Source of the DNA: Maricaulis alexandrii
Lineage (GTDB): Bacteria; Pseudomonadota; Alphaproteobacteria; Caulobacterales; Maricaulaceae
Assembly (NCBI RefSeq): GCF_005871165.1
Contig: NZ_SWKP01000006.1
Coordinates: 324,001-388,000 of the forward strand
DNA: 64,000 bases
Direction: 5' to 3'
The stretch's first letter is position 1. Every line of letters begins with the position of its first letter. The translations under genes and the position numbers were made by a program. Positions 29,601 to 38,295 of this stretch are shown here, in pieces. Below the pieces are notes generated by a model, which was not told where the DNA came from, did no database searches, and worked only from the letters and a program-made list of their open reading frames with translations.

Positions 29601-29753
29601 TTCTCCGCCCTCCGGGGCGTCATTTAGGCATCGCGCCCGTCCGGCGCGAGAGGCAAAGCAGCAAAAACTGCGATCTTTGCCAGCTTAAGCCTGTTGAACC
29701 ATGTCACGCCATGGCTACCTTCCTTGCCAATCGCAGCCATGGGCAGAATGACA

Positions 29754-32700
29754 ATGAGCGAGCACGTGCAGGGCGAATGGGAATTCTGGATCGACCGGGG
29801 CGGCACGTTCACGGACGTCATCGGCCGCACACCCGATGGCCGTCTGCAGGCGCTCAAACTCCTCTCGGAAAGCCCCGACTATCCCGACGCGGCCAGTGAA
29901 GGCGTGCGCCGCCTGTCACAGGGCGCGCCGGTGCGGGCGGTGAAGATGGGCACCACCGTGGCCACCAATGCCCTGCTGGAACGCAAGGGCACGAAGACGC
30001 TCTTCCTGGTCACCAAGGGCTTCGGCGACCTGCTTGTCATCGGGGACCAGACCCGACCGGACATTTTCGCGCTCGACCTGAAACGGCCCGATCCGCTTTA
30101 TGACCGTGTGGTCGAGATCGAGGAACGTCTCGATGCCGACGGTATGATCGTCGAAGGCCTCAATATCGAGGCGGCCCGCCAGATCCTCGACCAGGCCCGG
30201 GCCGACGGGTTCGACACGCTCGCCATTGCCCTGATGCATGCCTATGCCAATGACGTTCACGAAGTCCGGCTGGAAGAATTGGCCAAGGAGGCGGGCTTCT
30301 CCACCATTATCCGCTCCTCGATCGCCTCGCCCCTGGTGAAGATCGGCCCGCGCGCTTCCACCAGCGTGCTGGACGCCTATCTCACCCCGGTCCTGCGTGA
30401 CTATGTCGGCCGCGTTGATCGCGGGCTCGACGGCACGCCGCTCTTTTTCATGCAGTCTTCCGGCGGCCTGGCACCGGCCAACAGTTTCCACGCCCGCGAT
30501 GCGGTCCTGTCCGGACCGGCCGGCGGCGTGGTCGGCATGGCCAAGACGGCCAAGCGGGCCGGGCATGACCGCGTCATCGGATTCGACATGGGCGGCACCT
30601 CGACCGATGTGTCGCGCTTTGACGGCGACGCCTATGACCGGGTGCAGGAAACTCTCGTCGCCGGCCACCGGCTGCGCGCGCCGATGATGGCCGTGCATAC
30701 GGTTGCAGCGGGTGGCGGCTCCATTCTGACCTTTGACGGCGAACGCGCCCGGGTCGGCCCGGACAGTGCCGGCGCCATGCCCGGTCCGGCCGGTTATGGC
30801 CGCGGCGGTCCCGCCGCCGTGACGGACGCCAATATCGTGCTCGGCCGGATCCAGCCGGACTGGTTCCCCCACGTCTTTGGCGAAAGCTCCGACCAACCGC
30901 TGGACGTTGAGGCCTCACGCCGCGCCCTGGGTGAACTGGCCGGGCAAATGGGCCTGTCAGGACCGGAAGAGGCCGCCGAAGGCTTCCTCGCCGTCGCTGT
31001 GGAGAGCATGGCCCAGGCGATCAAGCAGATTTCCATCGGCCAGGGTGTGAACCCGTCGCGCTATGCGCTGGCGGCCTTTGGCGGTGCCGGCGCGCAACAT
31101 GCCTGCCGTGTCGCCGATGCCCTCGGAATGAGCACGGTCCTGATCCACCCCTATGGCGGTCTGTTGTCCGCGCTCGGGATCGGTCTCGCCGAAATCCGCG
31201 AAACCCGGCTGGGCGCGGTCGAGGAGACGTTGGACGCGGCGGAAAGCCGGGCCCGATCCCTGACGCAGGAACTGGGTGCGGAAGCGCAAGCCGGCCTCAC
31301 CGCCCAGGGCTTGCCGCAGGACACGATCCGGGTGCACGGGGAGTGGCGCCTCAAGGTCGCCGGGTCGGATACGTCGATTCCGGTCGCCGAGGCGGATCGC
31401 GCGACCATGGAAAAGGACTTCGCCGAGGCGCATCAGCGGCTGTTCGGCTTCATCCCGGCCGGCGAACTCGTGATCGAATCCGTCAGCGTGGAAGCCGAGG
31501 CCGAGCCGCCGGGTTCCAGCGACTGGACCATCGAAATGCCGGATGCCGGCCAGCCCGCCCCTGACCCGGCCGGACAGGTCAGCCTGTTCGACCAGGGCGA
31601 CTGGCAGGACATCCCGGTCTACCGGCTGGACGGGTTTGGACCGGAAGCCCGCATCGCCGGCCCGGCCCTGATCATGGACCCCAATACCACCATCGTCGTG
31701 GACGCCGGCTGGGAGGCTGTGCGCCTGCCGGACGGAACGATGAGCCTGGAGCGCACGGGCGCGCGCCGCGATGACAGCCAGGACACCGAACTCGACCCGG
31801 TCCGGCTGGAGCTCTTCAACAAGCGCTTCATGAGCGTGGCCGAACAGATGGGCGTCGCCCTGGAGCGGACGGCCCATTCGGTGAACATCAAGGAACGGCT
31901 CGACTTCTCCTGCGCGGTCTTTGACGCGCAGGGCGGGCTGGTCGCCAATGCCCCCCACATGCCGGTCCATCTGGGCTCCATGTCGGCCTCCGTTCGCGCC
32001 GCCGCCGACGCGCATCCGGATCTGGGCCCGGGCGACGCCGTCGCCGTCAACGCGCCCTATGATGGTGGCACGCACCTGCCGGACATCACCTTGGTCACCC
32101 CCGTTCATGATCCCGATACGGGCGAGCGGCTCTTCTATGTCGCGGCCCGCGGACACCATGCCGATGTCGGCGGCATCGCACCGGGCTCCATGCCGCCCTT
32201 CTCGCGCACGATCGACGAGGAAGGCGTGCAGTTCCGCAATGTGAAAGTGATGAGCGGCGGCACGTTCGATGAAGAGACCGTGCGCGAGGTGCTGGCCTCC
32301 TCCGCCCACCCGGCCCGCAAGCCGGACCAGAATATTGCCGACATGAAGGCCCAGCTGGCCGCCTGCGCCCGCGGGGCCCAGGAGCTGCACCGCCTGGTCA
32401 GCGATAACGGGCTGGATGTGGTGAAAGCCTATATGGGCCACGTCCAGGACAATGCCGAGCGCGCCGTCCGCCGCGTCATCGAGGCGCTGAATGATGGCCA
32501 TCACACGGTCCGCCTGGATGACGGAGCTCAGATCAGTGTGGCGATCTCCGTCAATCGCGAGGACCGGTCGGCCGTGATCGACTTCACAGGCACCTCGCCC
32601 CAGCGCGACAGCAATTTCAACGCCCCCGCCTCGGTGGCGCGTGCCGCCGTGCTCTACGTCTTCCGCTGCCTGGTGGGCGATGCCATCCCGCTCAATGAAG

Positions 32701-33326
32701 GCTGCCTGAAACCGATCAAGCTGATCATTCCGGAGGGCTGCCTGCTCAATCCGCGCCCGCCCGCCGCCGTCGTGGCCGGCAATGTGGAGACCAGCCAGCT
32801 GGTCGTGGATGCCCTGTTCGGTGCCACCGGACGCCTGGCCGCCTGCCAGGGCACGATGAACAATCTCACCTTCGGCAATGACCGCCACCAGTATTACGAG
32901 ACGATCTGTGGCGGCGCCGGTGCCGGCATTGATGCAGACGGGGACGGTTTCTCCGGTGAGAGCGCCATCCACACCCACATGACCAATTCGCGCATGACCG
33001 ATCCGGAAGTCCTGGAGCGTCGCTATCCGGTGCGGGTCCTGCACCACCGTATCCGGGCCGGCTCCGGCGGCACGGGGCGCTGGCGCGGCGGTGACGGGTC
33101 GGTGCGACGGCTGCAATTCCTGGAACCGATGGAGGTCGCCCTCTTGTCATCGCGCCGGAATGAGAACCCGTTCGGCCTGAATGGCGGCGGCGATGCCCTG
33201 CCCGGCCAGCAACGCGTCTGGCGCAGTGACCAAGTCGAGGAATTGCCCGGCCTGTTCCGCATCGATGTCGAGGCCGGTGACAGTGTGGAAATCGAGACGC
33301 CCGGCGGTGGCGGGTTCGGCGGCTGA
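29754..33326 (+). CDS. 5-oxoprolinase (hydantoinase A/B fusion)
   Basis: ATP-dependent 5-oxoproline hydrolase family, about 1190 aa. The N-terminal HyuA half (to ~residue 670) begins [20 protein letters not shown] and includes [16 protein letters not shown] and [16 protein letters not shown]. The C-terminal HyuB half begins near [20 protein letters not shown] and has HGD-type segments [12 protein letters not shown] and [16 protein letters not shown]. Both halves in one chain is the eukaryote-like OPLAH arrangement and favours 5-oxoprolinase over hydantoinase, which is usually two proteins. Starts at 29694, 29739 and 29748 are also in frame; none has a strong ribosome binding site. Confidence 0.9.
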
Positions 33327-34069: not shown

Positions 34070-35110
34070 CTAGATGATTTCGTCTTCATCGAAGAAGGAA
34101 TCACTGCCCAGCATGTCGTCGAACTGGGCCAGCGGTTCGTCATTGTGACGATGGATGATCTCCGCGACATGGCAGACGGCATCCCCCTCATTGACGATGG
34201 GCAGCATGGTCCGGCCGATGATCAGGCCGGCGACCGGTGACGGGATTTCGACATCGGCCTCGCCCAGCGGATCGCTGAGCACGCCGATCAGCTCGCCGGC
34301 TTCGACATGCTGACCGACCGAGCGGTACATGCGCAGCACCCCGCCCATCGGCGCGCGCAGCCAGGTGCTCTTCTTGCTCATCTCCGAGACAAGTTTGGAT
34401 TTCAACCCCTTGTCCGCCCGGACCAGGTTGAGCTTGCGCAGGACGCGCAAAATCCCCTTCACGCCCATGCGCAGCGCCATTTCGTCAAAGCGCAGCGCTT
34501 CACCGCTCTCATAGACCAGCACGGGAATATCCCGCGACTGGGCCGCAGCCCGCAGGGACCCGTCCCGCAGGGTTGAATGAACGATGACCGGGCTGGCGAA
34601 TTCGCGGGCCAGGTCCAGCGCCTGGGGCACACCGGTATCGACCCGGATCTGGGGCAGATTGGTGCGGTTCTGGGCAGCCGAGTGCAGGTCGATCCCGGCG
34701 TCGCAGCGTTCCACGATTTCCGTCATGAAAATGTTCGCCAGGCGCGCCGCCAGAGAGCCGCTGGCCGCCCCCGGGAAAGAGCGGTTGAGATCGCGGCGGT
34801 CCGGCAGATAGCGCGAATGGGAAATGAAGCCGTATGTGTTGACGACCGGAATGCAGATCAGCGTGCCGGCAATCGAGCGCAATTGCGGTGTCCGGATCAG
34901 GCGGCGGATGATCTCCACGCCGATGATCTCGTCACCATGGATGGCGGCAGACACAAAGACGGTCGGTCCCGGCCGCCGGCCATGGATGACATGAGCCGAC
35001 AGGGACATGGGCGTGTGATCGGAAAGCACCGAGACCGGAATCTCGACAGTGGCCCGCGTCCCGGCCGCGATTTTGCGGCCGGCAATCTCGAAGGGCTCCC
35101 GGCGGCTCAT
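34070..35110 (-). CDS. AstE/ASPA (M14-like) zinc hydrolase of the RimK set
   Basis: 346-aa succinylglutamate desuccinylase/aspartoacylase family protein. Zinc motif HGDEIIGVE (His and Glu), [11 protein letters not shown], then [16 protein letters not shown] with the third zinc His. The C-terminal part (~250-346, [20 protein letters not shown]) looks like a biotinyl-lipoyl-type beta domain, common in this subfamily. It overlaps the rimK-like gene by 4 bases. Family members hydrolyse amide bonds to acidic amino acids, so it could remove what the ligase adds. That role is inference. Confidence 0.88.
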
Positions 35111-36012
35111 CCCTTTCCGCGCGTCTTCGTCTTGCCGGGCACGGCATTCTTCTCGATGAAATCGATTATCTGTGCAGCGACGTCCACACCGGTGGCATTC
35201 TCGATGCCTTCCAGGCCCGGCGAGGAATTCACTTCCATGATGACCGGGCCGTGATTGGAGCGCAGCATGTCGACACCGGCGACATTCAGCCCCATCACCT
35301 TGGCCGCACGCACCGCCGTGGAGCGCTCTTCCGGCGTCAGCTTGATCTTGCTGGCCGACCCGCCACGGTGGAGGTTGGAGCGGAAATCGCCTTGGGCACC
35401 CTGGCGCTTCATGGCCGCCACGACCTTGCCGCCGACCACGATGGTGCGGATGTCGGCGCCGCCGGCTTCCTTGATGAATTCCTGGACCAGGATATCGACT
35501 TTCGCGCCGCGGAAAGCCTCGATCACGGACTTGGCCGAGCGGCGGGTTTCCGCCAGCACCACGCCGACGCCCTGTGTGCCTTCCAGCAATTTGATCACCA
35601 CCGGCTCGCCGCCGACAATGTCGAGCACGTCATCCGTCATCGAGGTGTCGTGCGCGAAGGCCGTCACCGGCAGGCCGATCCCGGCGCGGGACAGGAGTTG
35701 CAGGGAGCGCAGCTTGTCGCGCGAACGGCCGATGGCGACGCTTTCATTGGCCGCCCACACGCCCATCATCTCGAACTGGCGCACGACGGCCATGCCATAG
35801 CTGGTGATCGACGCACCAATCCGCGGAATGACCGCATCCACTTTCGGTACGGCCCGGCCCTGATAGCGCAGCTCCGGCTTGTGGGACGTGATGTCCATGT
35901 AAAGCTTGAGCGTATCGTAAATATCGATCTCGTGACCGCGCGCCTCTGCTGCCTCCACCAATCGCTTGTGCGAGTAGAGATTGGCGTTACGGGCCAGCAT
36001 GATGAATTGCAT
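35107..36012 (-). CDS. rimK: RimK-type ATP-grasp amino-acid ligase
   Basis: 301-aa ATP-grasp ligase closely resembling RimK, which adds glutamates to the C-terminus of ribosomal protein S6. Start [20 protein letters not shown] is typical, then [20 protein letters not shown], the ATP-grasp core [40 protein letters not shown] and the Mg2+ site [15 protein letters not shown]. It lies 58 bases after the retropepsin-like gene and overlaps the zinc hydrolase. Substrate (S6 or other) cannot be read from sequence. Confidence 0.92.
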
Positions 36013-36070
36013 ATGGGTCTCCGCCTGTGCGGCTAGTGTGAGCTGTTGGATAGCAATGATGGGGGGTTAA

Positions 36071-36553
36071 CTAAAGGGGTGCCGAGCAAAGAAAGGATCG
36101 CGTCGGGTCCACAAGAGCGGCCGGTCGCAAGGCTGTCCGCCCGATCAGCATCCGGAACCCCATCTCGTCCCGGCGTGTCAGGGTCAGTTCGATCGGCCAG
36201 GCGTGCGGCCCGACCGCGAGGCGGGTCGAGACCACATAGCGGGTCTGGACCTGACCATTGGAACTGCGGATCTCGCGACTCTCCAGGACCGGCATTTCGC
36301 AGGGAATCCGGGTCGTGTTGTCATCCTGGTTCGGGTGCAGTTCGAACCGGACCCAGGGCGCGCCCTCCTTCTCGAAGGGCTTGATCTTCCAGGCATGGAT
36401 GGCCGAGGTCCGCGCCCCTGTGTCGATCTTGGCCTTGACCCGAAAATCCCCGAGATCGGGCAGACCGACCCATTCGCGCCAGCCCACAATGATGGACGGC
36501 GCTCCCGCGGGCTGGCGGGCCGATTTGGCAATTTTGCTACGGCGTGTCGTCAC
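36071..36553 (-). CDS. Retropepsin-like aspartic protease (RimB-type, formerly 'ATP-dependent zinc protease')
   Basis: 160 aa from the GTG at 36553; the open frame to 36718 overlaps the next gene and looks non-coding. The family is often annotated as zinc protease, but the sequence shows the retropepsin elements: D-T-G triad in KIDTGARTSAIHA and the late hydrophobic-hydrophobic-Gly motif MLIGRTAL. Upstream VGWREWVGLPDLG is characteristic of the RimK-linked group. It is first in the gene order protease-ligase-hydrolase. Confidence 0.85.
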   Translation of the reverse strand: MTTRRSKIAKSARQPAGAPSIIVGWREWVGLPDLGDFRVKAKIDTGARTSAIHAWKIKPFEKEGAPWVRFELHPNQDDNTTRIPCEMPVLESREIRSSNGQVQTRYVVSTRLAVGPHAWPIELTLTRRDEMGFRMLIGRTALRPAALVDPTRSFLCSAPL

Positions 36554-36668: not shown

Positions 36669-37301
36669 TCAGTCGCCGACCCAGAAGGCCAGACTGACCC
36701 CGTCCCGGGTAACGCCATCCAGCGTGATGTCGGCGATCAGGAGCTCTCCGACCGCGGACTCGCCGGACGTCCAGGCGGCATAACCGGCCGGATCATAGAC
36801 CGCAGACAGGCTGAATTCGCCCAGCTCGGCATGATGCGCCGTGATGGACACCCCCTCCGGCGTCACCGACCAGTCATCCACCCGCAGCGGATAGGCCTGG
36901 TAATAGTCGCCATACTCGTTGGACCCGGCCACCTCACTGGTATCCTCGATCGACAGGAGGACGCGTTCCTCAAATCCGTTCCAGTCCGGCTCCACCATGA
37001 TGGAGGTGAGGACGTAATCCCCGAAACGCACGTCCTCATTTGCCACGAAATAGCCCGGCAGCGTGCCGTCGACCGTATAGCGTGGTGCCACCGTATCCGC
37101 AGCGGTCTCCGGCTCGGCCGGATTGTCCGCCACCGGATCCTCGAGCGCGACATCGGCGCTTTCCTCGATCACCGGTTCCGGGACCCCATCCGCCGACGGA
37201 CTTCCGTCTGCCTGTCCCTGCAAGACATAGATGCCCGCGCCCAGCGCCCCCAGCGCAGCGACACTCACAACATTCAACACGGCTTTCATACTTGCCCCCA
37301 T
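36669..37301 (-). CDS. Anchored periplasmic protein of unknown function
   Basis: 210 aa: a signal-anchor helix (about residues 7-27, LNVVSVAALGALGAGIYVLQ), an acidic Pro/Glu linker (~30-72), then a soluble domain beginning RYTVDGTLPGYFVANEDVRF. Trp and Tyr are frequent (EYGDYYQAYPLRVDDW). No recognised family. An ATG four codons further in (37289) is an equal start candidate. It lies about 115 bases upstream of the retropepsin-like gene on the same strand. Confidence 0.7.
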   Translation of the reverse strand: MGASMKAVLNVVSVAALGALGAGIYVLQGQADGSPSADGVPEPVIEESADVALEDPVADNPAEPETAADTVAPRYTVDGTLPGYFVANEDVRFGDYVLTSIMVEPDWNGFEERVLLSIEDTSEVAGSNEYGDYYQAYPLRVDDWSVTPEGVSITAHHAELGEFSLSAVYDPAGYAAWTSGESAVGELLIADITLDGVTRDGVSLAFWVGD

Positions 37302-37353: not shown

Positions 37354-38295
37354 TTATGCAGGCTTGGCGGCGACCCAGATTTTCATGGTCAGCTGGCCAC
37401 CGGGCTCTTCCGGGTGCAGGGCGACCTGCTGGCCCAGCTTGAGGCCGGCCGCCTCAATCCAGCTGCGCATCTCCTCGTCGGAGAAGCCGAGGCGTCGGTG
37501 GTAGTGATCCTCGCGCAGGGTTTCCAGCTGGTGCGGGGCGAAGTCCACGATCAGGAGATTGCCACCGGGTTTGAGCACACGGGCGCACTCATCCACCGCC
37601 AGACCGGGATCCTCCAGATAGTGGAGCACCTGGTGCACGGTCACCAGATCCGCCGACGAGGTATCGAACGGCAGGGCCCCGACATCGGCATGGCGCACGG
37701 AGCAATGGCGCAGGCCCGCCTTTTCCAGGTTCAGGCGCGCCATGTTGAGCATGGAGTGGTTGATATCGACGCCGATGCCGCGATCAACCCGGTCGGAGAA
37801 AACCTCCAGCACACGCCCCGTCCCGACCCCGACATCGATCATCAGGCCGAACGGGCCGTCACCGGCCAGTTTGCGCATGGCCGCTTCGACCTCATGATCG
37901 GCCAGGTGAAAGGACCGGATGCGGTCCCAGTCCTCGGCGACGCTTTCGAAATAGGCCTGGGCCGCGTCCGCACGCGTCTGTTTGATGGCTTCCAGACGCG
38001 AGAAATCCCGCGTCATCACCGGATCTTCCTCGGGCAGGAGATCATTGGCCATCTGCGCCAGACGACGCCCACCCCCGGCCTCGCTCAGCCGGTAGAAGAC
38101 ATAGGCGCCTTCCGGCAGGCGCTCGGCGAGGCCCGCCTCGGTCAGGAGTTTAAGATGGCGCGAGACACGCGGCTGGCTCTGCCCCAGGATCTGGACCAGT
38201 TCGGAGACCGTCAGCTCGCCCCGCGACAGCAAGGCGGTAATGCGCAAGCGGGTCGGTTCGGCAAGCGCCTTGAGCTGAGCTACGAGGGAATCCAT
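37354..38295 (-). CDS. ArsR-family regulator fused to SAM-dependent methyltransferase
   Basis: 313 aa. Residues 1-90 are an ArsR winged helix (ALAEPTRLRITALLSRGELT, GQSQPRVSRHLKLLTEAG). Residues ~115-313 are a class I methyltransferase with motif I IDVGVGTGRVLEVF, GVDINHSMLNMARLN and LKPGGNLLIVDF. In several alphaproteobacteria this fusion sits beside metF; here the divergent neighbour is an amino-acid dehydrogenase instead. Typical ArsR metal-binding cysteines are absent from the recognition helix, which argues against metal sensing. Confidence 0.88.
   Translation of the reverse strand: MDSLVAQLKALAEPTRLRITALLSRGELTVSELVQILGQSQPRVSRHLKLLTEAGLAERLPEGAYVFYRLSEAGGGRRLAQMANDLLPEEDPVMTRDFSRLEAIKQTRADAAQAYFESVAEDWDRIRSFHLADHEVEAAMRKLAGDGPFGLMIDVGVGTGRVLEVFSDRVDRGIGVDINHSMLNMARLNLEKAGLRHCSVRHADVGALPFDTSSADLVTVHQVLHYLEDPGLAVDECARVLKPGGNLLIVDFAPHQLETLREDHYHRRLGFSDEEMRSWIEAAGLKLGQQVALHPEEPGGQLTMKIWVAAKPA

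Follow-up and report, generated by a model that had tools for sequence, protein, structure and literature searches.

A probable microbial module for building and dismantling glutamate chains: retropepsin, RimK ligase and AstE/AspA-family hydrolase in Maricaulis alexandrii

Introduction

RimK ligases are named after ribosomal protein S6 (RpsF), and the RimK literature cited here deals with the enzymes of Pseudomonas and E. coli. In Pseudomonas, the ligase forms the RimABK or RimBK system together with the retropepsin RimB and the phosphodiesterase RimA, and the reversibility brought about by RimB and RimK is already known. RimB requires five to six contiguous glutamate residues (PMC11957791, in excerpt) and leaves four to five of them on RpsF (PMC7343187, in excerpt). 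Here, we analyze a stretch of 64,000 nt from Maricaulis alexandrii (contig NZ_SWKP01000006.1, positions 324,001 to 388,000; the whole stretch is termed the window), in which the genes of a RimB-like retropepsin and a RimK ligase are followed by that of a zinc hydrolase of the AstE/AspA family. This triad is a widely conserved microbial module which probably builds and dismantles glutamate chains.

Several other systems show partial likeness. The RloABC system of Pseudomonas (RloA, RloB and RloC) has the same pairing of a retropepsin, RloA, with an ATP-grasp enzyme, RloC. RloA, a predicted secreted protein that acts together with a membrane protein, cuts poly-glutamate; a hydrolase is not described in the excerpts of that report (PMC12239564). 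Fusions of RimK to DUF785 (PF05618) occur in phage-like contigs, some bacteria and haloarchaea, and the excerpted text does not mention the hydrolase (PMC2530865). Tubulin polyglutamylation likewise employs an ATP-grasp ligase (TTLL) and an M14-fold hydrolase (CCP) on glutamate chains, a substrate that is putative for the Maricaulis enzymes. The cyanophycin pathway (CphA, cyanophycinase, CphZ) deals with a beta-Asp-Arg polymer, and cyanophycinase is not a retropepsin. In this pathway, enzymes annotated as members of the succinylglutamate desuccinylase/aspartoacylase family hydrolyze the dipeptides left by cyanophycinase, and their genes lie beside the polymer genes (PMC10206079, PMC12661447, both in excerpt).

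The Maricaulis hydrolase shares the catalytic domain family PF24827, including the HxxE...H motif and the catalytic Glu, with DoeB, aspartoacylase and AstE. Known AstE/AspA members act on N-acetyl- or N-succinyl-amino acids, and the C-terminal domain of aspartoacylase (ASPA) excludes polypeptides from the active site. In mammals, RIMKL ligases and ASPA take part in the metabolism of N-acetylaspartylglutamate (NAAG) and N-acetylaspartate (NAA).

Gene arrangement and protein families

Inspection of the open reading frames (ORFs) confirmed three consecutive genes on the minus strand, as described in an earlier note on this DNA, in the order retropepsin, RimK, hydrolase, the last two overlapping by 4 nt. 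The families given in that note (RimB-type aspartic protease, RimK-type ATP-grasp ligase, zinc hydrolase) were borne out by matches to PF05618, PF08443/PF18030 and PF24827. The features are as follows.

36071..36553, minus strand: RimB-like retropepsin, 160 amino acids (aa); GTG start; catalytic DTG at 36424..36416
35107..36012, minus strand: RimK alpha-L-glutamate ligase, 301 aa; C-terminal tail T-x-T-x-G-x-G at 35130..35110
34070..35110, minus strand: AstE/AspA-family zinc hydrolase, 346 aa; H58 at 34939..34937, E61 at 34930..34928, H143 at 34684..34682, E201 at 34510..34508
34090..34073, minus strand: acidic C-terminal tail DEDEII of the hydrolase

The ligase matches PF08443 with 226 bits and PF18030 with 138 bits and passes the S6--glutamate ligase equivalog NF007764 with 420 bits (cut-off 331). 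It aligns over residues 1-301 with the Pseudomonas RimK structures PDB 7QYR and 7QYS (443 bits for 7QYR) and is 91% identical to RimK of Maricaulis maris. The retropepsin matches PF05618 with 138.8 bits and shows the DTG motif and the retropepsin fold. Its best-scoring NCBIfam model is that of RimB, not RloA, and since the score is under the cut-off of this model, we call the protein RimB-like. R105 and R128 are conserved in 69 sequences and aligned to arginines of RloA; their spacing of 23 residues equals that of R114 and R137 of RloA, their putative counterparts (PMC12239564, in excerpt). The GTG start at 36553 is preferred for two reasons: a longer ORF with an ATG at 36718 would share 50 nt with the upstream ORF 36669..37301, and the start of the homologue of Maricaulis maris (L009) is only a few residues away from the position that corresponds to the GTG.

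In the genome of 3.35 Mb, PF05618, AstE_AspA and S6 have a single match each. Compared with the RimABK system, the locus contains the same RimK orthologue and an adjacent RimB-like retropepsin as predicted glutamate-removing partner, but differs by the additional AstE-family gene, by an S6 without a terminal glutamate and by a retropepsin below the RimB cut-off. Furthermore, rimA (EAL phosphodiesterase) is absent among the flanking genes scanned, i.e. a fasciclin gene, an ORF without Pfam match and an ArsR-methyltransferase gene.

Co-occurrence of the three families

The surroundings of RimK were read for the best 80 of at least 574 confirmed relatives, to which all 80-locus counts refer. Within the fetched flanks, beyond which RimB or the hydrolase may sit in some loci, all three genes were present in 40 loci, RimB and RimK in 28, RimK and hydrolase in 11, and RimK alone in 1. 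The hydrolase gene starts at most 100 bp from the RimK stop on the same strand in 48/80 loci.

Whole genomes were surveyed in two samples, which overlap in some alphaproteobacterial genomes: a class sample of 144 alphaproteobacterial genomes (RimK at E<=1e-60; hydrolase clade at >=291 bits, the next score being 164) and a phylum sample of 259 genomes (hydrolase at E<=1e-60, RimK at E<=1e-80). The class sample contained RimK in 27 genomes, PF05618 in 31 and the hydrolase clade in 19, with RimK and PF05618 together in 26 and all three in 18. The hydrolase clade was found in 18/27 RimK-positive vs 1/117 RimK-negative Alphaproteobacteria, and the hydrolase in 66/105 vs 0/154 genomes of the phylum sample. 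The Fisher p values of 2e-15 (class) and 2e-34 (phylum) are a guide only, as the genomes of both samples are related by ancestry and such values overstate their independence. The earlier note had proposed this survey for co-conservation, and its outcome ties the hydrolase clade to RimK. The triad is not due to chance.

This association extends beyond adjacency. In the class sample, 13/18 hydrolases (own genome included) lie within 1 kb of RimK and 5/18 elsewhere; in the phylum sample, 46/66 are located directly downstream of RimK with a median gap of 7 bp and 20/66 are not. Among the RimK-positive genomes of the phylum sample without an adjacent copy, 20/59 still have the hydrolase, vs 0/154 of the RimK-negative ones. 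RimB lies inside the fetched RimK surroundings in 34/40 hydrolase carriers of this sample, in several gene orders. Over 29 loci, the distances of RimK and hydrolase show a correlation of 0.70, which remains at 0.66 once S6 is regressed out (0/2000 permutations as high), while RimB distances correlate less (0.47 with RimK, 0.39 with hydrolase).

The sole clade member from a genome without RimK and PF05618 (G180) is an open frame and the lowest-scoring of the 19. It reads Arg, Gln and Gln at the positions of H58, H143 and E201, and N109 and R110 are missing as well; its branch is long and its composition unlike the others, which makes this alignment less sure. The protein looks inactive, a pattern as expected if the enzyme were jobless without RimK. 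Beyond bacteria, four haloarchaeal plasmid loci were read, and in 2/4 a relative of the hydrolase lies beside, and divergent from, a RimK-RimB fusion. The RimK family, PF05618 and PF24827 also have matches in Haloferax volcanii, whose genes may or may not represent the same set. A collection of viral contigs gave 20 pattern matches, with no relative among them.

Two variants of RimB arrangement were also observed. A second, more divergent RimB-like ORF directly follows the hydrolase gene in one locus (L015:5940-6458), and RimB and RimK share one open frame in the Alphaproteobacteria G161 (L197), G092 and G181, where the hydrolase gene is still present, either adjacent or elsewhere.

Signature and structure of the hydrolase

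The hydrolase matches PF24827 (AstE_AspA_cat) with 138.5 bits (cut-off 25), and H58, E61, H143 and E201 are common to its clade and to 20 other family members. Among the named enzymes of NCBIfam, no cut-off was passed: DoeB scored best (81 vs 403), and aspartoacylase (28.5 vs 180) and PRK05324 (AstE; 20 vs 170) were likewise below theirs. In contrast to these enzymes, the hydrolase belongs to a separate clade with its own arginines and a tight link to RimK and RimB. Of the 43 sequences in this clade, alignment A1 contributed 35, including one at a distance of 2 kb from RimK, and the class sample 8; the clade is split from 20 other alphaproteobacterial AstE_AspA proteins with a support of 98/98.

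Specific to the clade are seven near-invariant arginines, R105, R106, R149, R156, R187, R207 and R252, which are mostly missing in the 20 other family members (R156 in 1, R207 in 2, R252 in 2). The four haloarchaeal relatives, with 33-36% identity, keep R149, R156, R187, R207 and R252, whereas R105 is lost in 4/4 and R106 in 1/4. Plasmid copies from a cyanobacterium, Vibrio, Salinivibrio and Phaeobacter retain the full signature. These conserved arginines suggest a polyanionic substrate with several carboxylates, and beside RimK, oligo-alpha-glutamate would be the obvious one.

Structure comparison of a model, which has a C-terminal beta domain, yielded as best-scoring matches small-substrate acylases (DoeB-like) and a dipeptide hydrolase, not CCPs. 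The closest match which acts on a polymer breakdown product is CphZ; the comparison is limited to the shared fold and an identity of 16-17%.

Conserved tails were noted in two of the proteins. The hydrolase ends with DEDE[IVL][ILVT] in 35/47 complete proteins of a first set, which is mainly alphaproteobacterial, and in 1/28 hydrolases of the phylum-sample loci; this tail follows a variable linker in a region of low model confidence and could be a docking peptide. The basic tail T-x-T-x-G-x-G of RimK, which is present in 7QYR and 7QYS and perhaps binds a partner, occurs in strict form in 74/81 and in loose form in 80/81 sequences. Its loose form was counted in 60 phylum-sample loci: 0/11 with RimK alone, 7/9 with RimB only, 24/34 with RimB and hydrolase, and 4/6 where the hydrolase but no RimB was seen.

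Genomic context

No widespread fourth gene or substrate recurs near RimK in the 40 largest ORF clusters listed from the 80 loci and the window, apart from antisense shadows and local synteny. In the window, a fused hydantoinase A/B gene (5-oxoprolinase-type, 1210 aa, 29694..33326, plus strand) two genes away may encode a glutamate salvage enzyme; hydantoinase A/B domains were seen a single time in 75 proteins that flank other loci. The upstream gene 37354..38295 (minus strand) encodes an ArsR-type regulator fused to a methyltransferase, and a similar gene lies near the set of Maricaulis maris (L009:1474-2484). A scan of the operon detected no promoter-like site and one terminator-like site, on the opposite strand and inside the operon, neither result being above shuffles.

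Genes for MgtE, CorA/ZntB, MscS or an antiporter are found near the set in plasmid loci of Vibrio, Salinivibrio, Phaeobacter and Acaryochloris. On a plasmid of Vibrio europaeus (L314), the set and the genes of a diguanylate cyclase, MgtE, CorA, an MscS channel and a universal stress protein form one run on the same strand, and on a Salinivibrio plasmid (L316) it is near MgtE and a diguanylate cyclase. As a general link, an ion or osmotic context was dismissed and stays a lead, such families being few in a Pfam tally of flanking proteins. This tally covered 151/188 listed proteins from hydrolase-positive and 75/114 from hydrolase-negative loci, without near-duplicate loci and small or doubtful ORFs; among the 25 families listed per half, MscS reached 4/76 in one half, and MgtE and CNNM 2/75 each in the other. 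A link to saline habitats is no more than an impression, gained from the names and sources of the organisms in 21/22 plasmid records.

Discussion

The data fit a cycle of poly-alpha-glutamate in which each of the three enzymes would have its own step. As in other species, RimK would use ATP to extend a protein C-terminus and/or free poly-alpha-glutamate by alpha-linked glutamate residues, one at a time; the acceptor here may be another protein or the free polymer, and probably not S6. The RimB-like retropepsin, thought to be dimeric, would cut chains of at least five to six contiguous residues down to about four to five as in Pseudomonas, an activity to which the conserved D44, R105 and R128 point. 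Since the reversal by RimB is incomplete and short products remain, there is a job for a third enzyme: the hydrolase would convert those oligo- or di-glutamates that are too short for RimB to glutamate, similar to CphZ, which completes the breakdown of cyanophycin after cyanophycinase. The likeness to the latter pathway, whose polymer is beta-Asp-Arg instead of the alpha-Glu presumed here, is claimed for the way of working and not as membership. That the hydrolase acts on short free oligo-glutamate is, in our judgement, somewhat more probable than not.

Several observations weigh against this cycle. In addition to the shared ancestry of the sampled genomes, the functions of all three proteins are predictions from sequence, and the retropepsin reaches 142 bits against the RimB model NF052261 with its cut-off of 200. 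The fold and the arginines of the hydrolase would suit any acyl-amino acid with multiple charges, and small metabolites are among these. The hydrolase is missing in 9/27 RimK-positive genomes of the class sample and 39/105 of the phylum sample, and two of the counted copies carry an in-frame stop inside the match (TAA in G097, TGA in G250). Because Pseudomonas-type genomes have RimB-RimK without the hydrolase, the latter is not needed for every such cycle. Finally, S6 is still a possible target in those 8/27 RimK-positive genomes of the class sample in which it ends with glutamate.

The earlier note had read the triad as writer, eraser and trimmer in parallel to tubulin, an interpretation which is partly supported. 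RimK as writer agrees with the published work on Pseudomonas, and ligase and M14-fold hydrolase are both present; the published eraser of Pseudomonas, however, is the retropepsin RimB itself, and no support specific for CCPs was found. The parallel to tubulin would make the hydrolase an exo-carboxypeptidase which removes RimK-added residues from protein C-termini and finishes the RimB stub, as CCPs do on tubulin. The four to five residues remaining on RpsF would give such a finisher a job, and the M14 fold with its catalytic residues is common across the family. Yet we consider this reading unlikely, as the best structural matches are enzymes of small substrates, the C-terminal beta domain of the model recalls that of aspartoacylase, and no protein target is known in Maricaulis.

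By analogy with the NAAG/NAA metabolism of mammals, RimK might instead attach glutamate to a metabolite, with the hydrolase removing the acyl group from N-acyl acidic amino acids; such a small-molecule route appears improbable. DoeB as the best NCBIfam model, albeit far below its cut-off, and the DoeB-like folds speak for it. This route, however, leaves RimB without a role, although a PF05618 protein is present in 18/18 RimK-positive hydrolase carriers of the class sample, and it does not account for the seven arginines absent from most other family members.

A question separate from the substrate of the hydrolase is whether S6 is the acceptor, as in Pseudomonas and E. coli, with the hydrolase only tuning the modification; for Maricaulis, we assign this only a slight probability. 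The RimK score above the S6-ligase cut-off is in favor of it, as are Erythrobacter-type loci (L061, L064, L068, L071, L077, L079, L080, L086) near the rpsF/rplI cluster, in which rimB-rimK lie a few kb from rplI and the stretch holds no hydrolase gene. In the 80 loci, an L9-like ORF occurs near rimB-rimK in 8 and S6 in 4, and S6 may be a target in such places. In contrast, the single S6 of M. alexandrii ends with ...DDRRGPRRDRN, and in Pseudomonas RpsF a lysine at the penultimate position (D139K) blocks modification by RimK of both Pseudomonas and E. coli (PMC4741518, in excerpt).

S6 ends were also compared across genomes. In a first set of 50 genomes (50 picked from the 80, minus one without match, plus the own genome), S6 ends with glutamate in 8/40 hydrolase-positive genomes, a point for S6, and in 0/10 hydrolase-negative ones. 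In the class sample, where all 27 RimK-positive and 27/117 RimK-negative genomes were inspected, the ends do not track RimK (8/27 vs 6/27, p 0.76). Among 30 picked RimK-positive genomes of the phylum sample, with related genomes counted apart, glutamate ends were found in 6/19 hydrolase-positive vs 9/11 hydrolase-negative genomes (p 0.02). Four of the hydrolase-negative genomes belong to family f144 (ADE) and three to family f149 (GDSEE); these families appear to be pseudomonads and enterobacteria, given the S6 ends DNADE of Pseudomonas and GDSEE of E. coli (PMC11957791, Table 1); the Discussion of the same paper states that in some bacteria the S6 end is not glutamate. In addition, two haloarchaea have a relative of the hydrolase next to a RimK-RimB fusion, and the S6 profile had no match in 4 archaeal control genomes, which include one haloarchaeon. 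Three points make S6 an unlikely target here: the RRDRN end of the own S6, S6 ends in the class that are unrelated to the presence of RimK, and the hydrolase relative of haloarchaea; that the acceptor in Maricaulis is not S6 is supported, not proved.

That the hydrolase is a chance neighbor with an unrelated job, as its distance from RimK in 5/18 and 20/66 carriers might suggest, is almost certainly wrong, since such distant copies occur only with RimK in the phylum sample (20/59 vs 0/154) and RimK-free clade members number 1/117, the one that looks inactive, and 0/154.

The terms 'desuccinylase', 'aspartoacylase' and 'M14' are absent from the main texts of PMC11957791, PMC10092738, PMC12239564, PMC7343187 and PMC4741518. 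A literature search found no title or abstract start naming an AstE-family partner of RimK; an earlier description of the triad is possible, as a 2009 prediction paper was not covered by it. In that year, Iyer et al. (Mol BioSyst) reportedly predicted links of ATP-grasp ligases with peptidases of several folds. Within this scope, no description in print was found of the hydrolase as a near-constant companion of RimK or, at this scale, of the break between RimK and S6 ends; the new element here is the third gene.

If the hydrolase indeed acts on short oligo-glutamate, it would explain how the stub of four to five residues or the released peptides are cleared. More tentatively, the triad may represent a poly-alpha-glutamate economy that does not depend on S6, in which an ATP-grasp enzyme makes the polymer, a retropepsin breaks it down and the hydrolase is dedicated to oligo-glutamate. 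Such an economy would be widespread in Proteobacteria, have counterparts in a cyanobacterium and in haloarchaea, and serve to tag proteins besides S6 or to keep glutamate in store as a polymer of low osmotic cost; the S6 systems of E. coli and Pseudomonas would then be reduced, specialized offshoots. If many carriers have the third enzyme and an S6 end which RimK should refuse, many genomes carry a misleading annotation in '30S ribosomal protein S6--L-glutamate ligase'.
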